DNA of 25,952 nt, from IMG/VR virus record IMGVR_UViG_3300044859_000333, positions 1-25,952 of that record. One strand, 5' to 3'. The stretch is from a virus. The position numbers and the translations under genes are program-made. Positions 1-25,939 of this stretch are shown piece by piece. A model generated the notes under the pieces. That model searched no databases. It saw nothing but the letters and a program-made list of their open reading frames with translations, and was not told the DNA's origin. Every line of letters begins with the position of its first letter. Position 1 is the stretch's first letter.

Positions 1-398
1 TTGATTAACCCATTAGATGGTTTGCCTCCTGCATTTACCCACTTCATAAACTCATGTGCAATTTGCTTGTCATTAGGATTGGCATTTACTAACTTTAATA
101 AAGTTGATTTCTTTAATGCACCAACTCCGAGATTAAAAGCAAATGAAATCAATGCTGATCTTTGATTCTCGTTTGCAGTTGATTTAACGATCTTATTTAC
201 CTCCGATGCAAACTTGGTTACTGTGGTCAACAAAAGTGATTCTGCTCGCTGCTGACTGATTGAATCACCCGAATTAACCTTGTTGCCGTTCTCGTAAAAT
301 GTCGAACCATATCCGATTGTATAGATGCCTGCTTGGCATTTGTAACTTGTTAATTTGCACCCTTCGAATTTCTTAATTATGTCAATTGCTATTTTCAT
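1..398 (-). CDS. Phage lysozyme (GH24 endolysin), C-terminus cut by window edge
   Basis: This is a glycoside hydrolase family 24 lysozyme, which cuts the glycan chains of host peptidoglycan at lysis. Translating the minus strand from the ATG at 398 gives 132 residues and no stop before the window edge, so the C-terminus is missing; family members are usually about 140-165 aa. The family catalytic pattern Glu-8aa-Asp/Cys-5aa-Thr is present as E12, C21 and T27, followed by the IGYG motif. The middle also looks like the family, with an ALISFAFNLG stretch. A cysteine takes the place of the usual aspartate, and C14 lies seven residues before C21, the same spacing as the regulatory cysteine pair of phage P1 Lyz. 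There is no N-terminal signal-anchor segment, so release probably needs a holin. It is the last visible gene of the late operon, after two membrane or secreted proteins. Confidence 0.9.
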   Translation of the reverse strand, partial: MKIAIDIIKKFEGCKLTSYKCQAGIYTIGYGSTFYENGNKVNSGDSISQQRAESLLLTTVTKFASEVNKIVKSTANENQRSALISFAFNLGVGALKKSTLLKLVNANPNDKQIAHEFMKWVNAGGKPSNGLI

Positions 399-428: not shown

Positions 429-962
429 TTACTCCTTCACCACCTTAACACTCCCGATCTCAATTTGTCCACATTTGCTAAACGCTTTAACATGTTCGTG
501 CCGTTTACCATAGCGAATGAATAGAAATTTCTTTGATCGTTTTCCCAAGTAATTAACGATTTCGATCGTGTCATTGAATTGAATTGATAGTGTAGTATCA
601 ACCACCGAAACTGTGAAGCATGAATCCAAATAAGCCAACTCCCTGATGCGTGTGATTGTATCATAGCGTATGACCTCCATAGGTACATTCTCCCGAACTA
701 TCTTAGTCTTAATGGTAGTTAGTCCTTTAATGTGCTTCATGCGCTCTTTATGCAGCTTATTCAGTGAATCAATCTTGAACCCCAAACGATCTTCAAACTG
801 ATCTTTGGTAAGATTAACAACTCGTCCTTGTGATGGATTCAAAAGTGCATATTCATTTGATTCATGCCTTTCTGATTCTGTCTTGTAATCGCATGCCTTT
901 TGAGTAATTAGGATCAAGGCAAAAGACAGAACCAAGATCAAGCCGATTAAGTACCGATTCAT
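429..962 (-). CDS. Membrane-anchored protein of the lysis region, function unknown
   Basis: This 177-aa protein has one N-terminal hydrophobic segment (about residues 4-20) followed by a long, charged, probably extracytoplasmic part. The region around residues 60-135 is rich in charged residues and in alternating Asp-Thr-Ile/Val motifs. I do not recognise a family. A single N-terminal membrane helix with a periplasmic domain, next to a lysozyme, is the topology of an inner-membrane spanin (Rz-like) or of another lysis accessory protein; this is inferred from position and topology only. Its start overlaps the stop of the upstream secreted-protein gene in an ATGA junction, and the lysozyme gene starts about 30 nt beyond its stop. 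Two cysteines (in the DSCF and SKCG contexts) could form a disulfide outside the cytoplasm. It is too long for a typical holin, and only one membrane helix is visible. Confidence 0.6.
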   Translation of the reverse strand: MNRYLIGLILVLSFALILITQKACDYKTESERHESNEYALLNPSQGRVVNLTKDQFEDRLGFKIDSLNKLHKERMKHIKGLTTIKTKIVRENVPMEVIRYDTITRIRELAYLDSCFTVSVVDTTLSIQFNDTIEIVNYLGKRSKKFLFIRYGKRHEHVKAFSKCGQIEIGSVKVVKE

Positions 963-1273
963 AACACAAAAACCTTCCCACTCTTAAACGATCGTTTACC
1001 TCTGAAATCAAACCAAATTAATTCATAAGAATACCAACCTTTAATATCCTCCTTTCGCTTCCATCCATTCGTGTGTGGCTGCATAACATCGACAATGTAC
1101 CCATCAGGATTGGTTAATGTCAGCAGGAAATCTTTAACGTACGGACTCCAGACTTTAAGCGAATGACCGATTGGCAAAGTGTCTTGAATAAAGATTGAAT
1201 CATGGACTGCACGAACTCTATATTTTTGAGCCGAAATTGACAGCGAAATAAAAAGAAAAAGAATCGTTTTCAT
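959..1273 (-). CDS. Small secreted protein with signal peptide, function unknown
   Basis: This 104-aa protein starts with a typical Sec signal peptide: a short basic start, a hydrophobic core of Leu, Phe and Ile, and a likely cleavage near SAQ at residue 16. The mature part is about 88 aa, rich in aromatic residues, beta-like, and has no cysteine. No lipobox cysteine follows the signal peptide, so it is probably not a lipoprotein. I do not recognise a family. It is joined by ATGA overlaps to the PAS-protein gene upstream and to the membrane-anchored gene downstream, so it is probably co-translated with them. Its position just before the lysozyme suggests a part in lysis or in the host envelope, but nothing in the sequence shows this directly. 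Confidence 0.6.
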   Translation of the reverse strand: MKTILFLFISLSISAQKYRVRAVHDSIFIQDTLPIGHSLKVWSPYVKDFLLTLTNPDGYIVDVMQPHTNGWKRKEDIKGWYSYELIWFDFRGKRSFKSGKVFVL

Positions 1274-1797
1274 AGTTTAGTATTAGCGGAAATAATCGCA
1301 AGCCGTAATGCTGCCGATGCATTTTCAATAATCAATACAGCTTCTTTTCTTTCTAGTTCACTTTCTGCCATTCCTAGTAATTTCAAACCACCTTCTACCT
1401 TTGTTTGATGCGATAATAGTTCGTGATTCATGTGATGCTTGAAACTCTTAATAATGTTCTTCATCCTCTTATTCGCTTCCCTAGTTTCGTGAGGTGTGTC
1501 TGAAATAATTACCCCTAGAAAATGAAAGTGATTAAACAAAAAAGTATCAAAGGTAAATCTGCACAATTCGAACTTATGTCCTTTGACTTTTATCTTAATC
1601 GAGAAATTCTTGCTCTTGCTATTTATTGCCTTGTTGAATTTATCAATGTCCTCCGAATCTATGAAGTCAAATATGTTACTGCCAATGGTAATGTCAATCG
1701 TGTTCTGAAAGAAATTATTTGAATAAATTACTCTATAAGTAGGATCGCAAACAAAATACAATAAATTATCTGATAATAGCGCCAATCTGTCTAACAT
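1270..1797 (-). CDS. PAS-domain protein with histidine-kinase dimerisation segment but no ATPase domain
   Basis: Residues 5-100 of this 175-aa protein look like a PAS sensor domain: a YRVIYSNNFF core with the usual Asn and aromatic residues, then GSNIFDFI and an SEDIDKF helix. Residues 110-172 look like the dimerisation and phosphoacceptor (DHp, HisKA-like) helices of a sensor kinase, with an H-box-like segment containing H125-E126-L127. The protein ends there: the N, G1, F and G2 boxes of the ATP-binding domain are absent, and the next gene is a secreted protein in another frame, so no lost catalytic half follows. It cannot be an active kinase alone. It could pair with a host kinase, accept phosphate from one, or act as a ligand-sensing adaptor. 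A TAnnTTTG box lies 6 nt upstream of the ATG. The PAS call is fairly firm; the DHp call is moderate because the usual H-box proline is missing. Confidence 0.65.
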   Translation of the reverse strand: MLDRLALLSDNLLYFVCDPTYRVIYSNNFFQNTIDITIGSNIFDFIDSEDIDKFNKAINSKSKNFSIKIKVKGHKFELCRFTFDTFLFNHFHFLGVIISDTPHETREANKRMKNIIKSFKHHMNHELLSHQTKVEGGLKLLGMAESELERKEAVLIIENASAALRLAIISANTKL

Positions 1798-1802
1798 GAT
1801 TG

Positions 1803-1810
1803 CAAAGGTA
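1803..1810 (-). promoter_or_regulatory. Possible Bacteroidota -7 promoter box ahead of the PAS gene
   Basis: Read on the minus strand this is TACCTTTG, a full match to the Bacteroidota -7 consensus TAnnTTTG. It lies in one of the few short gaps between genes, 6 nt ahead of the ATG at 1797, so a transcript from it would be leaderless or nearly so. No clear -33 TTG is seen at the expected distance. The motif has only six fixed bases and occurs by chance in AT-rich DNA, so this is a weak call. Confidence 0.3.
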
Positions 1811-11106: not shown

Positions 11107-11625
11107 ATGACAGCCTTAGTAACAGGATTAAGTGATTCAAAATATTACTCTGATAGTTATGATTTAACTGTTGGAGTAAACGATTGTCCTTTCCCCGTTG
11201 ACCATTTAATTGTCTGCGATAATCCTTCTGTATTTTCAAGTGTCAGAAAGCAAACCATAATCAATCACAAGGCAAAACTATTTACTCAACTTGATTCATG
11301 GAGGCAATTGCGACCTGCACAATTAATTAGATTTACAACTCAAAGATCAAGTGTTAATCAACTAAGCAGAAAAGATTTTTATTGCCATTCAATCTGCTCT
11401 CCATTTATTGCCGTAGTTCATGCATTCTACATGGGAGCAACAGAAATACATTTAGCAGGAGTTGATATAACTGGTCATCCGAACTTAGGAAAAGACTTTA
11501 TGATTGAAAGAATTCAAAAAGATTTTAAAGCATTGTACCTTGAATTAAAAAAAAATGGTTGTGAATTAAAGCTGCTGAAGTTTAATCCTGATTGTGCGCT
11601 TCTTGGGATTGTACCTGAATGCTAA
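11107..11625 (+). CDS. Rossmann-like MptE/DUF115-type protein, probable sugar-modification enzyme, on opposite strand
   Basis: This 172-aa protein is the only gene on the plus strand. The N-terminus (MTALVTGLSDS, a GVND motif near residue 23, then a VDHLIVCDNPSVF strand-turn) and the later LGA-like segment (HAFYMGATEIHLAGVDITG) follow the pattern of Rossmann-type MptE-like/DUF115 proteins, which occur in bacterial and phage glycosylation loci. I see no complete sialyltransferase signature. It has a -7 box of its own and converges on the minus-strand glycosyltransferase-like gene, with the last 44 nt of both genes overlapping. It would be transcribed against the late operon, so it may be expressed at another time, as a cargo gene. 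The family call is moderate and the substrate unknown. Confidence 0.6.
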   Translation: MTALVTGLSDSKYYSDSYDLTVGVNDCPFPVDHLIVCDNPSVFSSVRKQTIINHKAKLFTQLDSWRQLRPAQLIRFTTQRSSVNQLSRKDFYCHSICSPFIAVVHAFYMGATEIHLAGVDITGHPNLGKDFMIERIQKDFKALYLELKKNGCELKLLKFNPDCALLGIVPEC

Positions 11626-12364
11626 AATAATTATCAACTACCTTTATTTTGCGCCCTTGAAAGTATTTAATTCCATTATCTGATTCGGCATTGTAATTCT
11701 CAAACTCATCAATATACCCTGCTGATTTTATTTGAGCCATTGTCGGACTTGCTGCATTCACAAACTTTTCTTCGATGTTATTTCTGACCATTGAAAAATG
11801 ATGCATCATGATTTGAGATTCAGAAAAAACATGGAATCTTCCAACAGTATTAATTTTTACAGAAGGATCAACAAGAACAGGATATCGAACTGATTTCACA
11901 AATTTACTCTCAGGATAAATTTTCATTATAAACGGCATCTTGTAATCTTCAATAGGTAATAATTGCCAAGTTGGATTCTTGTAATAAGTGTACATGGATG
12001 TAAAGGTGCAATCGTAATTCTGCCCCAATCCAATTGCTTGAATAAACTCATCTGATTTATAATAGTGATCAGTTGCGCTGACAATGATATGCGTACAATG
12101 CAAATGTCTTGCAGCATCAATCATTAAGTTGTGCTTGTTGAGTTCGTTTGTTTTTGTGTCGGCTTTTAAATCAGGTACAAACTTGATAATTGAAACACCT
12201 TCAAGTTGATCAAGTTGATTTTCAATATCTGCATTAAAGTTTCCACGATTCGAAATGTCTTGAAAGCAAATTACTATTTCATCAACATGATCTTTAATTT
12301 GATTAATGCTGCCTTGCAATAATTCAAACCCATTAAAGACTGTGTAAGCGAAACATAGTTTCAT
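11582..12364 (-). CDS. Glycosyltransferase-like protein (GT-A type)
   Basis: In this 260-aa protein the N-terminus (KLCFAYTVFNGFELL, then HVDEIVICFQD) has the strand-helix-strand pattern of family 2-like GT-A glycosyltransferases. A strand IIVSATDHYYKSDEF near residues 92-106 stands where the acidic metal-binding motif is usually found. The C-terminal third has an HHFSMVRNNIEEKF helix of the type seen in such enzymes and no membrane helix, so it is probably cytoplasmic. It starts in an ATGA overlap with the acyltransferase gene, and its 3' end overlaps the convergent plus-strand gene by 44 nt. The acceptor could be a virion protein, a host glycan or an activated sugar carrier; the sequence does not say. 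Confidence 0.65.
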   Translation of the reverse strand: MKLCFAYTVFNGFELLQGSINQIKDHVDEIVICFQDISNRGNFNADIENQLDQLEGVSIIKFVPDLKADTKTNELNKHNLMIDAARHLHCTHIIVSATDHYYKSDEFIQAIGLGQNYDCTFTSMYTYYKNPTWQLLPIEDYKMPFIMKIYPESKFVKSVRYPVLVDPSVKINTVGRFHVFSESQIMMHHFSMVRNNIEEKFVNAASPTMAQIKSAGYIDEFENYNAESDNGIKYFQGRKIKVVDNYFSIQVQSQEAHNQD

Positions 12365-12882
12365 TTGATTAATATTTTAGCAGGATTACCCACAACAGTA
12401 ATTCCCGGATCAACATCTTTAGTTACTACTGCTCCCATTCCGACAACAGCCTCCCGACCAATAATCTTTCTGTTTCGAATCGTTACACCTAGTTTGATTT
12501 TTGCACCGTCATTAATATGGCAATAACCTCCGACAATTGTCCCTGTTGATAGTTCGCAGTTGTTACCTATCACAGCATCATGACCAATATGAGTGTGAGC
12601 CATTATGATGTTATCATTTCCGATAATGGTTTTCTTATCAGCAGCAGCAGGTCTTTGAATTGTAACTAATTCTGAAATAGTATTTCCGCTTCCAATTTCT
12701 ACACGACCTTCAAATTCTTGCATGCCTCTTATTTCACCATTTGAACCAATCACGCAATATGCACCAATAATATTATTTTGCCCCATCGTTACGTTTGGGT
12801 AAATGATTGCAGTTGGGTGTATCTTATTTGATTCGTCAAAATCAAAACTTTGCTCGTAAATTGAATGATCAGGATGGTTCAT
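12361..12882 (-). CDS. LpxA-like left-handed beta-helix acyltransferase
   Basis: In this 173-aa protein residues 21-165 are hexapeptide repeats ([I/V/L]-G-x4) that fold as a left-handed beta-helix. The pattern opens with IHPTAIIYPNVTMG and includes MAHTHIGHDAVIGN, which matches the active-site region of LpxA; H101 aligns with the catalytic histidine. The end VGNPAKILIK is typical of sugar acetyltransferases. The C-terminal helical domain of LpxA (about 260 aa in full) is missing, so a short sugar N- or O-acyltransferase is more likely than a true lipid A enzyme. It overlaps the AsnB-like gene by 14 nt and is coupled to the glycosyltransferase gene through ATGA. It probably modifies the sugar handled by those enzymes. 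Confidence 0.85.
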   Translation of the reverse strand: MNHPDHSIYEQSFDFDESNKIHPTAIIYPNVTMGQNNIIGAYCVIGSNGEIRGMQEFEGRVEIGSGNTISELVTIQRPAAADKKTIIGNDNIIMAHTHIGHDAVIGNNCELSTGTIVGGYCHINDGAKIKLGVTIRNRKIIGREAVVGMGAVVTKDVDPGITVVGNPAKILIK

Positions 12883-14323
12883 AAATTTCTTTCCATTTAG
12901 TTAATGCTGCATTGCTCCATTTTCTTGCTTGATTTCCTTCGCCTTCAAAATAATCTGGAGAACTAAAACCTTTTTTCTTTCCATCAAGAATCTCATTTGG
13001 AATGATAGATCGAAATGCTTCTTTCAAAAGTAATTTATTATTCTTAAACTCATTAGGTAATTTCAAACAAAAATCAACAAGATCATTATCAAGAAATGGA
13101 TATCTTCCTTCAATCGTGTGAGCCATTCCAAGTTTATCACCGACCAACAAAAGACCTTCCAAGAAATATTCAGCATCGAATTTAAAACGATTCTCCAAAG
13201 TATCTTCAGGAAATAACTCATTAAAAAGTCCTTTGCAATATTCATCTTCAACACCAGTTCGGTTAACTACTGAATAATAATCCGCAATTGAATACCTCCA
13301 CGGATAACCACCAAATAATTCATCAGATCCTGTTCCATCATAAATAACTTTGCATCCTGTTTTGGAAGCATATTCATACAGTCCATAATTTGAAAAACTT
13401 GCTCCAACTCGTAAATCCTCAAGATGATAAATGGTCTTATCTAGTTTATAAATTCCATCAAAGTAAATCTCAGTATGTTTATCATTTGCCAACAAGCGAG
13501 CCAATTCGCTTTCATCACCTGAATCGAAGCAAGCAGTATAAGTTGGTAATTCACTAAACAGATTTCTAATTATGTTTGAATCAACACCTCCAGAAACAAA
13601 TACTCCTGCTTCATCTGATCTGTATTTTTCGACCATTGATTCATTGAGCAAATTTAAGACTGTGTTTTTTGCCTCATTAAAATCCATTTGAGTAGGTTCG
13701 AAATTCCAACTCCAATATTTCTTTTTATTCCCGGTATTTAAATGCCAAATCGTACCCTTTTCAAGTTTTTTAATTCCTGAAAATAATGTTTCATTTGTCA
13801 ACACATTGTTAAATACTAACCATTGTCTAGCTACATTATTATTTAATGATGTGATGTATTCAGGATGACCAACTATTGCTTTGCATTCTGAAGCAAAAAC
13901 AATTGTTTCATGCCTCTCCCAATAGTAGATAGGTTTTATTCCGAAACGATCACGAATGATATAAACTTGATCACCTTTTATTGCGACAATTACGAACATG
14001 CCATTAAGTTCATTAATGAAATTCAATCCGTAATCTCGTAATCCTTTTGCAATAACCTCAACCTCAGATCCTGTATATCCAAATGTTTTGTAATTATAAA
14101 TTTCACCATTTAAATAAACAATCCAACTATTATCAGATGGCTGCTGTTTATCAATGTCTGTTAAAGCAAGTCTATTAAATGCAACAGTTACAGCACCATG
14201 AATCTTAACGCTAAAATGATCTTGCCCCCTGTGAACTTGTTTGTCCATCATAAGAGTTGCTATGTCTTTATGATATAATTCAGGTTCAAGTGATTTGCTA
14301 AATATCCCTGCTATCCCACACAT
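12869..14323 (-). CDS. asnB: AsnB-type glutamine-hydrolysing amidotransferase
   Basis: This 484-aa protein has the two domains of the class II glutamine amidotransferase/asparagine synthetase family. Cys2 is the N-terminal nucleophile of the glutaminase domain (MCGIAGIF, then HRGQD at 31-35, LNGEIYN at 71-77 and a DRFGIKP segment). The synthetase domain holds the PP-loop ATP-binding motif SGGVDS at 244-249, with GTGSDELFGGY at 330-340. No key residue appears missing. Such enzymes activate a carboxylate with ATP and transfer ammonia from glutamine. In sugar loci, AsnB-like members (for example WbpS) can amidate uronic acids, so the substrate here may be a sugar acid rather than aspartate. It sits between two-domain glycosyltransferase and acyltransferase genes, overlapping both. 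Confidence 0.9.
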   Translation of the reverse strand: MCGIAGIFSKSLEPELYHKDIATLMMDKQVHRGQDHFSVKIHGAVTVAFNRLALTDIDKQQPSDNSWIVYLNGEIYNYKTFGYTGSEVEVIAKGLRDYGLNFINELNGMFVIVAIKGDQVYIIRDRFGIKPIYYWERHETIVFASECKAIVGHPEYITSLNNNVARQWLVFNNVLTNETLFSGIKKLEKGTIWHLNTGNKKKYWSWNFEPTQMDFNEAKNTVLNLLNESMVEKYRSDEAGVFVSGGVDSNIIRNLFSELPTYTACFDSGDESELARLLANDKHTEIYFDGIYKLDKTIYHLEDLRVGASFSNYGLYEYASKTGCKVIYDGTGSDELFGGYPWRYSIADYYSVVNRTGVEDEYCKGLFNELFPEDTLENRFKFDAEYFLEGLLLVGDKLGMAHTIEGRYPFLDNDLVDFCLKLPNEFKNNKLLLKEAFRSIIPNEILDGKKKGFSSPDYFEGEGNQARKWSNAALTKWKEIYEPS

Positions 14324-15668
14324 AAGGCATTGCTTTTTTTATTTCGTTAAAATCTATGTAATGAGTGTTTTCCCAAAGTTGAAATGGTGTCATGTTTTCA
14401 GAAGATTTAATATCTAAGGCAAAAACATTATTCTTTTTTAATGAAATCGAAGCAGATGAATGAGGTGTTAACTTTAACTTTTCTTGAACTGAATTATCCA
14501 AGATATGACTGTGTTTGTTTTCCCACGGCTGCCAGTTCCATTTTACCATTAATCTTGATGAAATCAATCTTCCTGCTCCTGCTGTATGCATTAATCTTCT
14601 AGCGTCAATATAACCTCCCCAATATGCAGCCCTGTTAGTTGTCGTGTCGTAAAAATAAAAATCAGTTACTCCGATAAAGTCAGTTCCCTTTTCAATTTCT
14701 TTTGAATAAACATTCATCAACTCAGGTGAAATCACATCATCAGAACCAAGACAAAGAACGTAATCGCAACCTAATTGTCCTGCCTTGATAGTTGTTGCAT
14801 TCATCTTAGCTGCAAGTGGTGTGTTCGGCACTTCCAAATAAATATAACCTTTTGATTCAACCATCTTTCGTGATCGTTCACCTTCTGATCCTGCAACTAT
14901 AACATGATAATTAAAATCAGAGTTCTTAATTAAATGACCAATACCCTTTGCAAACATTTCGAATACTTCTGGACGTTTCCAAACTCCCGTAACAATCGCA
15001 ATGGTTTTTCTTTTCTTGATTTCAGGATGGAAAATATTAATGTAAAAATCAGAATCATCTCCAATAAGTTGTCTGAGTTTTTTAAATTCAGGATCAGGTG
15101 AATATCCTTTGAATGTTTCTAAATGTCCTTTGCCACCTGTTGATCCGATGCCGTGTTTGATGCCAACTGCGATTGCTGGTAATGTTCTAAATGTTTTACC
15201 CTTTAATTGCTTCCATAATTCGATGTCTAGAAATACAAACGAATCTTCAGGAAAAGTAATCTTTTTAATTCCTTCTGCTGACAATAGTGTTCCCATCAAA
15301 CTTGCACGTCCGGGATGAGTTAACTCTACATGCAAACCTTGTTTAATATGATAGTATTGTGTTTGTTCAACTCCAAATATTTCGGGCTTGCCTTGTATCT
15401 CCCAAAACTCAATCATTGATTTAATGTAGTTAGGAGAATACCAATCATCATCCTCCATAATCAAGACCACATCACATCCAAGTTCAATTGCTTCTTCGCA
15501 TCCTATTCTGATTCGCTTTGTTAGGTCTTTTGCCAACACATCTTCTTTGTGATCAACTATAATCCAATGGTCAGGTCTTAGTGTTTGACGTTGAATATAA
15601 AAGCTTAATCTGTCCAAGAACATTTTGCGCTTCGAATCTTGATGAGGTGTTATAACTCCGATTGTCAT
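14298..15668 (-). CDS. Two-domain GT-A glycosyltransferase
   Basis: This 456-aa protein has two GT-A-like halves. Domain 1 begins MTIGVITPHQDSKRK and has LIMEDDDWYSPNYI near residues 69-82, an acidic DxD-like metal and nucleotide-sugar motif. Domain 2 begins near residue 220 (KTIAIVTGVWKRPE) and has CLGSDDVISPE around 306-316, again DxD-like. No membrane helix or signal peptide is seen. Bifunctional glycosyltransferases of this type may add two sugars in turn. The C-terminal 60 residues are polar. The gene starts in an ATGA overlap with the HTH gene and its end overlaps the AsnB-like gene by 26 nt. Donor and acceptor are not evident. Confidence 0.8.
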   Translation of the reverse strand: MTIGVITPHQDSKRKMFLDRLSFYIQRQTLRPDHWIIVDHKEDVLAKDLTKRIRIGCEEAIELGCDVVLIMEDDDWYSPNYIKSMIEFWEIQGKPEIFGVEQTQYYHIKQGLHVELTHPGRASLMGTLLSAEGIKKITFPEDSFVFLDIELWKQLKGKTFRTLPAIAVGIKHGIGSTGGKGHLETFKGYSPDPEFKKLRQLIGDDSDFYINIFHPEIKKRKTIAIVTGVWKRPEVFEMFAKGIGHLIKNSDFNYHVIVAGSEGERSRKMVESKGYIYLEVPNTPLAAKMNATTIKAGQLGCDYVLCLGSDDVISPELMNVYSKEIEKGTDFIGVTDFYFYDTTTNRAAYWGGYIDARRLMHTAGAGRLISSRLMVKWNWQPWENKHSHILDNSVQEKLKLTPHSSASISLKKNNVFALDIKSSENMTPFQLWENTHYIDFNEIKKAMPYVWDSRDI

Positions 15669-25289: not shown

Positions 25290-25638
25290 CAAGCCAAGGT
25301 GGTCTGTTTTCAAATTCGTGTTTAACTTCACGCTCTTGCTTATCTCTCCACTCGTCAGGAAATCTATTCTTCATGTTGAAAACATAAACTCCCGTGTTTA
25401 AAGATGTTTCTGAATTTATAATATTATCCCTACCTAGTTTTTCCCAAAACAACCTGCTTTTTTCAGTTCCTATTTCTTTGGAGTGTAAGAATTCAGGATT
25501 AGCATCCCTCCAGTTGTACAATGTTTTCTTTGTAACACCTACTATCCCTGCAAATGATTCAAACGATAAGCCTTCTGATAGATGATCAATTAACATCTGA
25601 CAAAACTTGCTTTCATAGTCTGTTGGATGACCTGCCAT
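25276..25638 (-). CDS. terS: Terminase small subunit
   Basis: In this 120-aa protein residues 20-50 hold an HTH (FESFAGIVGVTKKTLYNWR) for recognition of the packaging site, followed by an oligomerisation helix pair and a C-terminal part (ENRPPWLDAAK) that probably contacts TerL. The N-terminus, MAGHPTDY, recalls the usual start of TerS in this group. It overlaps TerL and is preceded by a -7 box, so the late transcript may begin here. Confidence is high from pattern and position, though the exact TerS subfamily is not resolved. Confidence 0.88.
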   Translation of the reverse strand: MAGHPTDYESKFCQMLIDHLSEGLSFESFAGIVGVTKKTLYNWRDANPEFLHSKEIGTEKSRLFWEKLGRDNIINSETSLNTGVYVFNMKNRFPDEWRDKQEREVKHEFENRPPWLDAAK

Positions 25639-25654
25639 AATTTAAATTTATAAA

Positions 25655-25662
25655 CAAAGTTA
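25655..25662 (-). promoter_or_regulatory. Possible Bacteroidota -7 promoter box ahead of terS
   Basis: The minus strand reads TAACTTTG, a full match to TAnnTTTG, 16 nt upstream of the terS ATG. An upstream TTTG lies 14 nt before it, a little close for the usual -33 element. The gap between terS and the previous gene (37 nt) is one of the largest on this strand, so a late promoter here is reasonable; the leader would be only about ten bases. Confidence 0.35.
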
Positions 25663-25675
25663 CGCAAAATTAGAA

Positions 25676-25939
25676 TCAAAGTTTCTTTTCGAATTTTTCG
25701 ATCGCTTGCCTGAGCTGATCAACCTTTTCGCAAGTGTCAAGATATTCCCGATATAGCTTAGTTAGTTTGATCGGGATCGGTTTTTGTTCCGGAACATCAA
25801 CTTTAATATCAACGATAAATGGCTGATCAGGTTTGCCGAAGTATTGCTGAATAAAGAAGTTGACCGAATAACTACTTAGCTTATGAGTGATCGAAAGTTC
25901 GGTGATCGATGTGTGATTGCAAATGAAGTCCTCTAGCAT
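25676..25939 (-). CDS. Small unknown protein upstream of terS
   Basis: This protein has 87 aa from the ATG at 25939; the frame stays open to the window edge (13 nt), so the true start may lie outside. Residues 8-35 (NHTSITELSITHKLSSYSV, followed by a Phe/Ile-rich helix) could be a helix-turn-helix. The C-terminal third is a charged coiled coil. No family is recognised. Position before terS suggests a DNA-binding or regulatory role, which is inference only. It is separated from terS by 37 nt that carry the -7 box. Confidence 0.55.
   Translation of the reverse strand: MLEDFICNHTSITELSITHKLSSYSVNFFIQQYFGKPDQPFIVDIKVDVPEQKPIPIKLTKLYREYLDTCEKVDQLRQAIEKFEKKL

Follow-up and report, generated by a model that had tools for sequence, protein, structure and literature searches.

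What might a phage do with a sensor kinase that stops before its catalytic domain? This question is raised by a gene in the virus record IMGVR_UViG_3300044859_000333 from IMG/VR, of which we analyzed positions 1 to 25,952 (this whole stretch of 25,952 nucleotides is the window). The gene reads from 1797 to 1270 on the minus strand, starts with ATG, and has 175 codons, according to the list of open reading frames (ORFs). A first-pass annotation, made from the letters alone, described its product as a PAS fold joined to a segment like the dimerization and histidine phosphotransfer (DHp) domain of histidine kinases, with an H-E-L core (H125) and then a stop; it did not name the strand. The structural model from AlphaFold2 (AF2) and reciprocal profile matches agree with that description. 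Judging by its sequence, the PAS-DHp protein is a sensor-kinase core (a PAS domain, a signalling helix, and a complete DHp) that ends at the boundary between the DHp and the catalytic and ATP-binding (CA) domain, with the ATPase domain absent.

Layout of the encoded protein

The search with hidden Markov models that the first-pass annotation suggested gave a mixed answer. The PAS domain had a weak match to PAS_9, below the gathering score, and no HisKA-type domain was found with Pfam or NCBIfam (nor did PHROGs have a match to the DHp), but custom profiles built from the DHps of cellular histidine kinases did identify it. In 395 Bacteroidota genomes, a profile of the phage protein had 14 matches at E ≤ 0.01. 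Of those that cover residues 100-173 or so, most lie on the DHp of large PAS kinases, with HATPase_c behind it and the acceptor histidine on H125; two of the 14 (L070 and L071) are unrelated proteins. The H-box F-x-H-I-V-S-H-N-L-R-x-H is common to most of the matched cellular kinases.

In the reverse direction, a profile of six of the matched kinase DHps found only the PAS-DHp gene in 30 phage records (E from 4e-9 to 1e-7). Because those six had been picked by the phage profile, we redid the test with 26 other cellular DHps, which were found with the first six. Among 1706 phage frames, this second profile also found only the PAS-DHp gene (E from 5e-6 to 2e-4; 3.6e-5 for the window). A profile built for the H-D-L-R-x-P class misses it. 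The real score of 23.2 bits was not reached by any of 5000 plain or 5000 heptad-preserving shuffles (the best shuffle had 14.2 bits), and hhalign matched the phage DHp to the cellular class (92%, E 6e-7). These comparisons indicate that the phage DHp is homologous to the F-x-H-I-V-S-H-N-L-R-x-H class of Bacteroidota sensor kinases. The two are in the same register, and H121, H125, and H130 are common to both. At H+1 and H+3, the Asn and Arg of the cellular class are replaced in every phage copy by Glu and Leu, respectively. PDB sequence searches with the phage protein gave nothing meaningful.

This cellular class (L058, L059, L063, L064, L065, L069, and L072-L101) is widespread in Bacteroidota. 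Its profile matched 88 of 247 sampled genomes, with part of these matches belonging to a neighbouring class. The two members that we scanned, L058 and L059, are full PAS kinases with HATPase_c, yet they have no Pfam HisKA-type match; the class seems to lack a Pfam model.

As to the PAS domain, the match to PAS_9 had E 0.0079 and 16.9 bits, against a gathering score of 27, and no Pfam PAS family was above its gathering score. Once relatives with 66% identity joined the alignment, the AF2 model had a mean pLDDT (predicted local distance difference test) of 74.8. It has two strands, helices, three strands, a long helix (residues 106-143), and another helix (147-174). The order of strands and helices is that of a PAS domain, and residues 106-174 are predicted to form a hairpin, which the first-pass annotation had allowed might be missing. 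The top PDB match by Foldseek is 4gcz (E 6e-5, probability 1.0), which we take to be the LOV-histidine kinase YF1. VIA-align gave Z 9.8 and a root-mean-square deviation (rmsd) of 3.9 to the LOV kinase EL346 (152 aligned, covering residues 9-173) and Z about 9 with rmsd about 2 to PAS-B domains (about 93 aligned). The best matches among solved structures are PAS/LOV proteins, and several are LOV-histidine kinases that align across both the PAS domain and the DHp. An unrelated chain, from the FLCN-FNIP2 complex, scored slightly above the PAS/LOV matches in VIA-align, so these Z values back a fold and nothing further. On the model, a PAS fold is predicted to be present. It has no profile match to the PAS domains of the cellular kinases, from which it is too diverged. 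Its residues C17, H74, C79, H90, and H92 are conserved.

An earlier AF2 model, from 7 near-identical sequences (pLDDT 56), was set aside: its DHp matches were no better than those of any helical hairpin. In that model, the matches to HK853, SrrB, and DivL all share one register at residue 125, which presumably corresponds to H260 of HK853, H369 of SrrB, and Y550 of DivL.

The first-pass annotation saw no ATP-binding domain in any nearby frame, and neither did we. HATPase_c (PF02518) had no match at E ≤ 10, and the receiver domain (PF00072) had none, in the window or six relatives, seven phage records that may be incomplete; control genomes gave matches in these searches. As the PAS-DHp gene and the one after it share 4 nucleotides, a frameshifted CA domain would not fit in between. 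Among the matches listed (roughly 150 cellular members of the class and its neighbours, from 247 genomes), all open frames have at least 349 amino acids, and the CA-less form of the H-N-L-R-x-H class was seen only in phages. A chromosomal Bacteroidota protein from a neighbouring DHp class (L107:1088-2134, minus strand; 349 amino acids) has a PAS-PAS-HisKA layout without HATPase_c, which suggests that a PAS-DHp layout without CA may occur in cells too.

All phage copies have H121, H125, E126, L127, L128, S129, and H130 (8 sequences), and H125 is at the phospho-acceptor position by alignment with the cellular DHps. Conservation is higher in the core, residues 125-138, than elsewhere in helix 1 (12/14 versus 6/13 residues, P 0.04). 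In HisKA kinases, autokinase activity requires an acidic H+1 and a hydrophobic H+2, full autokinase activity requires a basic H+3, and phosphatase activity requires Thr or Asn at H+4 (PMC3510030). The phage protein kept H-E and lost the basic H+3, which fits the loss of self-phosphorylation in a protein whose acceptor still matters. A classical phosphatase would find no support in these residues.

Relatives, lysis cassette and host

The PAS-DHp gene is present on 10 IMG/VR contigs at 66-99% identity, with two copies cut by a contig end; the full-length set has 8 distinct sequences in two clades. A scan with the neighbouring genes returned the same contigs and one more, L021, which starts only shortly ahead of the 177-amino-acid gene. 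A search of 50,697 phage records and a short-pattern search of genome contigs found no relative, and scans of viral contigs with a mixed phage/cellular DHp alignment or with the cellular class alone gave no additional members. All full-length copies have identical length and stop at the same residue, so we rejected the idea that the gene is a truncated full kinase. The first-pass annotation had also considered that this copy might be truncated, but no homologue with a full kinase turned up. The gene is under strong purifying selection: the ratio of nonsynonymous to synonymous divergence (dN/dS) is about 0.04-0.1 in pairs with unsaturated dS, and for the window versus L003, dN is 0.027 and dS is 0.70.

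Table 1. Features at and around the PAS-DHp gene in the window
Feature	Position	Strand	Evidence
PAS-DHp protein gene, 175 amino acids, without HATPase_c	1270..1797	minus	ORF list, IMG/VR homologues, dN/dS
PAS domain, residues about 9-100	1498..1773	minus	weak PAS_9 match, AF2 topology, Foldseek/VIA matches to LOV-histidine kinases and PAS-B
Predicted linker helix and DHp hairpin, residues about 106-175 (helices 106-143, 147-174)	1273..1482	minus	AF2, reciprocal profile matches to Bacteroidota histidine kinase DHps
H-box core, H125-E-L-L-S-H130	1408..1425	minus	invariant in 8 sequences; H125 aligned with histidine kinase phospho-acceptor
TACCTTTG, Bacteroidota -7-type promoter-like box	1803..1810	minus	kept in nine sequences compared
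104-amino-acid protein, signal-peptide-like N-terminus	959..1273	minus	4-nucleotide overlap (ATGA) with PAS-DHp stop; adjoins the gene in relatives read
177-amino-acid protein, N-terminal membrane segment, weak DUF6549, lysis-cassette partner	429..962	minus	ORF list, Pfam, PHROG
Endolysin, GH24 phage lysozyme, cut by window edge	3..398	minus	Pfam Phage_lysozyme 7.7e-38, PHROG endolysin

As first noted, the gene lies between tail-fibre-like genes and an endolysin (ORF list, Pfam, and PHROG); a 65-amino-acid ORF is also upstream of it. In the relatives, a 72-amino-acid gene, like that of a small membrane protein, comes after the endolysin. The endolysin itself is exchanged between otherwise collinear cassettes, a GH24-type lysozyme versus a Peptidase_M15_4 (L017:9419-9847 versus L010:7366-7800). 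In one relative with the Peptidase_M15_4 endolysin, the PAS-DHp gene and the genes for the 104-, 177-, and 72-amino-acid proteins remain, so the PAS-DHp gene goes with the cassette as a whole rather than with a particular enzyme.

The first-pass annotation also reported a TAnnTTTG box 6 nucleotides before the ATG. The box (TACCTTTG) is there, but the distance is 5 nucleotides. On the minus strand of the window, TAnnTTTG occurs about as often as by chance (20 observed, 16 expected). All nine sequences compared, two of which have an unrelated upstream gene, keep the longer pattern TAA[CG]TA[CT]CTTTG with five bases between it and the ATG. A nearly leaderless transcript from this box is possible. 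Elsewhere in the window, at 25655-25690 (minus strand), a TTTG and two overlapping TAnnTTTG motifs are spaced like a Bacteroidota promoter; they lie upstream of an ORF that starts at 25638, beside the large terminase gene. An Rfam scan of the first 6 kb of the window gave no match.

We rejected the gp090 family of Cellulophaga phage phi18:3 as a member, since it has no sequence similarity, a membrane segment first, and no DHp. This family (L114:39102-39620, L120:3411-4046, and L121:3435-4037) is present in 24 Cellulophaga phage records; after the N-terminal membrane segment, its proteins may have a PAS-like fold at the C-terminus (Foldseek probability 0.97, E 8e-3 to the phage model). The family shares the genomic slot between tail genes and endolysin in phi18:3 and phi38:2.

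The relatives of the large terminase subunit are from Bacteroides phages and Bacteroidota genomes, and the phages with the PAS-DHp gene very likely infect Bacteroidota. The suggestion that the protein might tune lysogeny has little support: none of the seven records, which are possibly incomplete, has a tyrosine integrase. A small XRE-type helix-turn-helix gene is present in two relatives only. Within the structural region of the window, 11582-15668 (minus strand) encodes a glycosyltransferase-2, an asparagine synthase, a hexapeptide-repeat transferase, and one protein without a Pfam match, which suggests phage-encoded modification of sugars or surfaces.

What the protein might do

Because the PAS-DHp protein cannot use ATP itself, our preferred proposal is that, late in infection, it may act in trans on a two-component system of the host, as a phospho-acceptor or a decoy. 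We hold this proposal tentatively, as one that falls a little short of probable. The protein would form a homodimer through the four-helix bundle of the DHp. It might then pair with a host kinase from its own DHp class, or H125 might take phosphate from a host kinase or from a phosphorylated response regulator. Either way, host signalling would be dampened or redirected, and the PAS domain would gate the action by a cytoplasmic signal. The first-pass annotation had a similar idea. Its account of the layout (PAS and DHp, no catalytic domain, close to the lysis genes) stands, and pairing with a host kinase or drawing phosphate from it fits, although this part we only infer. The more specific proposal, that in this lineage a sensor kinase became a PAS-gated phospho-acceptor in trans, with which the phage reads a host two-component system, or drains it, and links it to lysis, seems rather doubtful to us.

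Several observations weigh against action in trans. The phage and cellular DHps are only about 30% identical, so no particular host kinase is closely mimicked. A late place in the lysis cassette is odd for a host-takeover factor. All copies have S129 at H+4, where the HisKA phosphatase motif has Thr or Asn, and the isolated DHp of EnvZ, which was credited with phosphatase activity in other work, was inactive in one system (PMC8971529). Taken alone, the invariant H125 counts for little, because the distinct full-length sequences are so few and fall into just two clades. Finally, the homodimer, the host partner, the phosphate on H125, the PAS gate, and the effect on lysis or on the host response are all inferred.

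Some of the same features would fit a protein whose DHp is a dimerization scaffold only. The PAS sensor dimer would then time lysis by direct contact with a phage or host protein, and no phosphate would be involved. The absence of the CA domain, the loss of the basic H+3, and the Ser at H+4 would be expected, and the N-terminal half of the PAS domain is conserved like the DHp (30/38 residues versus 18/27 for helix 1). The 4-nucleotide overlap couples the gene to the lysis cassette, and the gene remains through the change from GH24 to Peptidase_M15_4. However, three residues that should be exposed to solvent, H125, E126, and H130, are invariant down to 66% identity, and a pure scaffold would not need that. 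Also, the 104- and 177-amino-acid neighbours have the look of exported or membrane proteins, which leaves the cassette without an evident partner in the cytoplasm. We consider a pure scaffold unlikely.

A stand-alone phosphotransfer protein like Spo0B, which would carry phosphate from one response regulator of the host to another or strip one of them, is more improbable still. The phage protein has no counterpart of the degenerate CA-like domain of Spo0B, no receiver domain is encoded in the seven records, and no host regulator is known. On the other side, the phage protein still has H125 and an acidic residue at H+1, and Spo0B, which is similar to a histidine kinase phosphotransfer domain, passes phosphate from one response regulator to another (PMC11210211). 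That the gene is a decaying, functionless remnant of a captured kinase, or a truncated gene, is scarcely credible: the missing CA domain, the lost basic H+3, and the weak family scores would fit, but the gene is under the purifying selection described above, its full-length relatives share their length and a clean stop at a domain boundary, and the promoter-like box and the place in the operon are conserved.

Comparison with known systems

Our search of the literature, with subscription papers mostly outside it, found no report of a phage-encoded truncated histidine kinase or of a PAS-DHp phage protein. We know of no earlier phage regulator with this architecture, so if the protein is a phospho-acceptor in trans, it would be the first; nor do we know of a comparable phage signalling factor in Bacteroidota. 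Among bacterial proteins, Spo0B and ChpT are histidine-containing dimers of the DHp type without autokinase activity, and Spo0B keeps a degenerate CA-like domain. They differ from the phage protein in that they are bacterial, act in a known phosphorelay, and have no PAS domain, and in the presence of the degenerate CA-like domain.

Among viruses, proteins of Agrobacterium phage Atu_ph07 and of an uncultured Caudovirales phage (A0A6J5L941) likewise have a PAS/histidine kinase-like fold, but these have 528-536 amino acids and are annotated as kinases, whereas the PAS-DHp protein has no catalytic domain. A precedent for phage interference with host kinases is PIT4, from Pseudomonas phage LSL4, which binds to the histidine kinase domains of its host (PMC10714779). 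As we propose for the PAS-DHp protein, its targets are histidine kinases of the host, and it works via the kinase domain. PIT4 is an early gene, however, and is not known to have a PAS-DHp layout. VqmA of vibriophage VP882 is a phage-encoded PAS receptor; it shares the PAS domain with our protein, whose output half is a DHp (PMC8284805).

The PAS kinases of Bacteroidota (such as L058, L059, L063, and L064) have a homologous DHp with a PAS domain directly upstream and with the H121, H125, and H130 positions in common. The members of this class that we examined run on into HATPase_c, whereas the phage protein ends after the DHp, and its H-box is H-E-L-L-S-H instead of H-N-L-R-S-H. If it does act in trans, then the phage would steer host two-component signalling at lysis with a stripped-down sensor of the host's own type. 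The protein, with 175 amino acids and one candidate phospho-site, would then be a small handle on how phages hear or silence the signalling of their Bacteroidota hosts.
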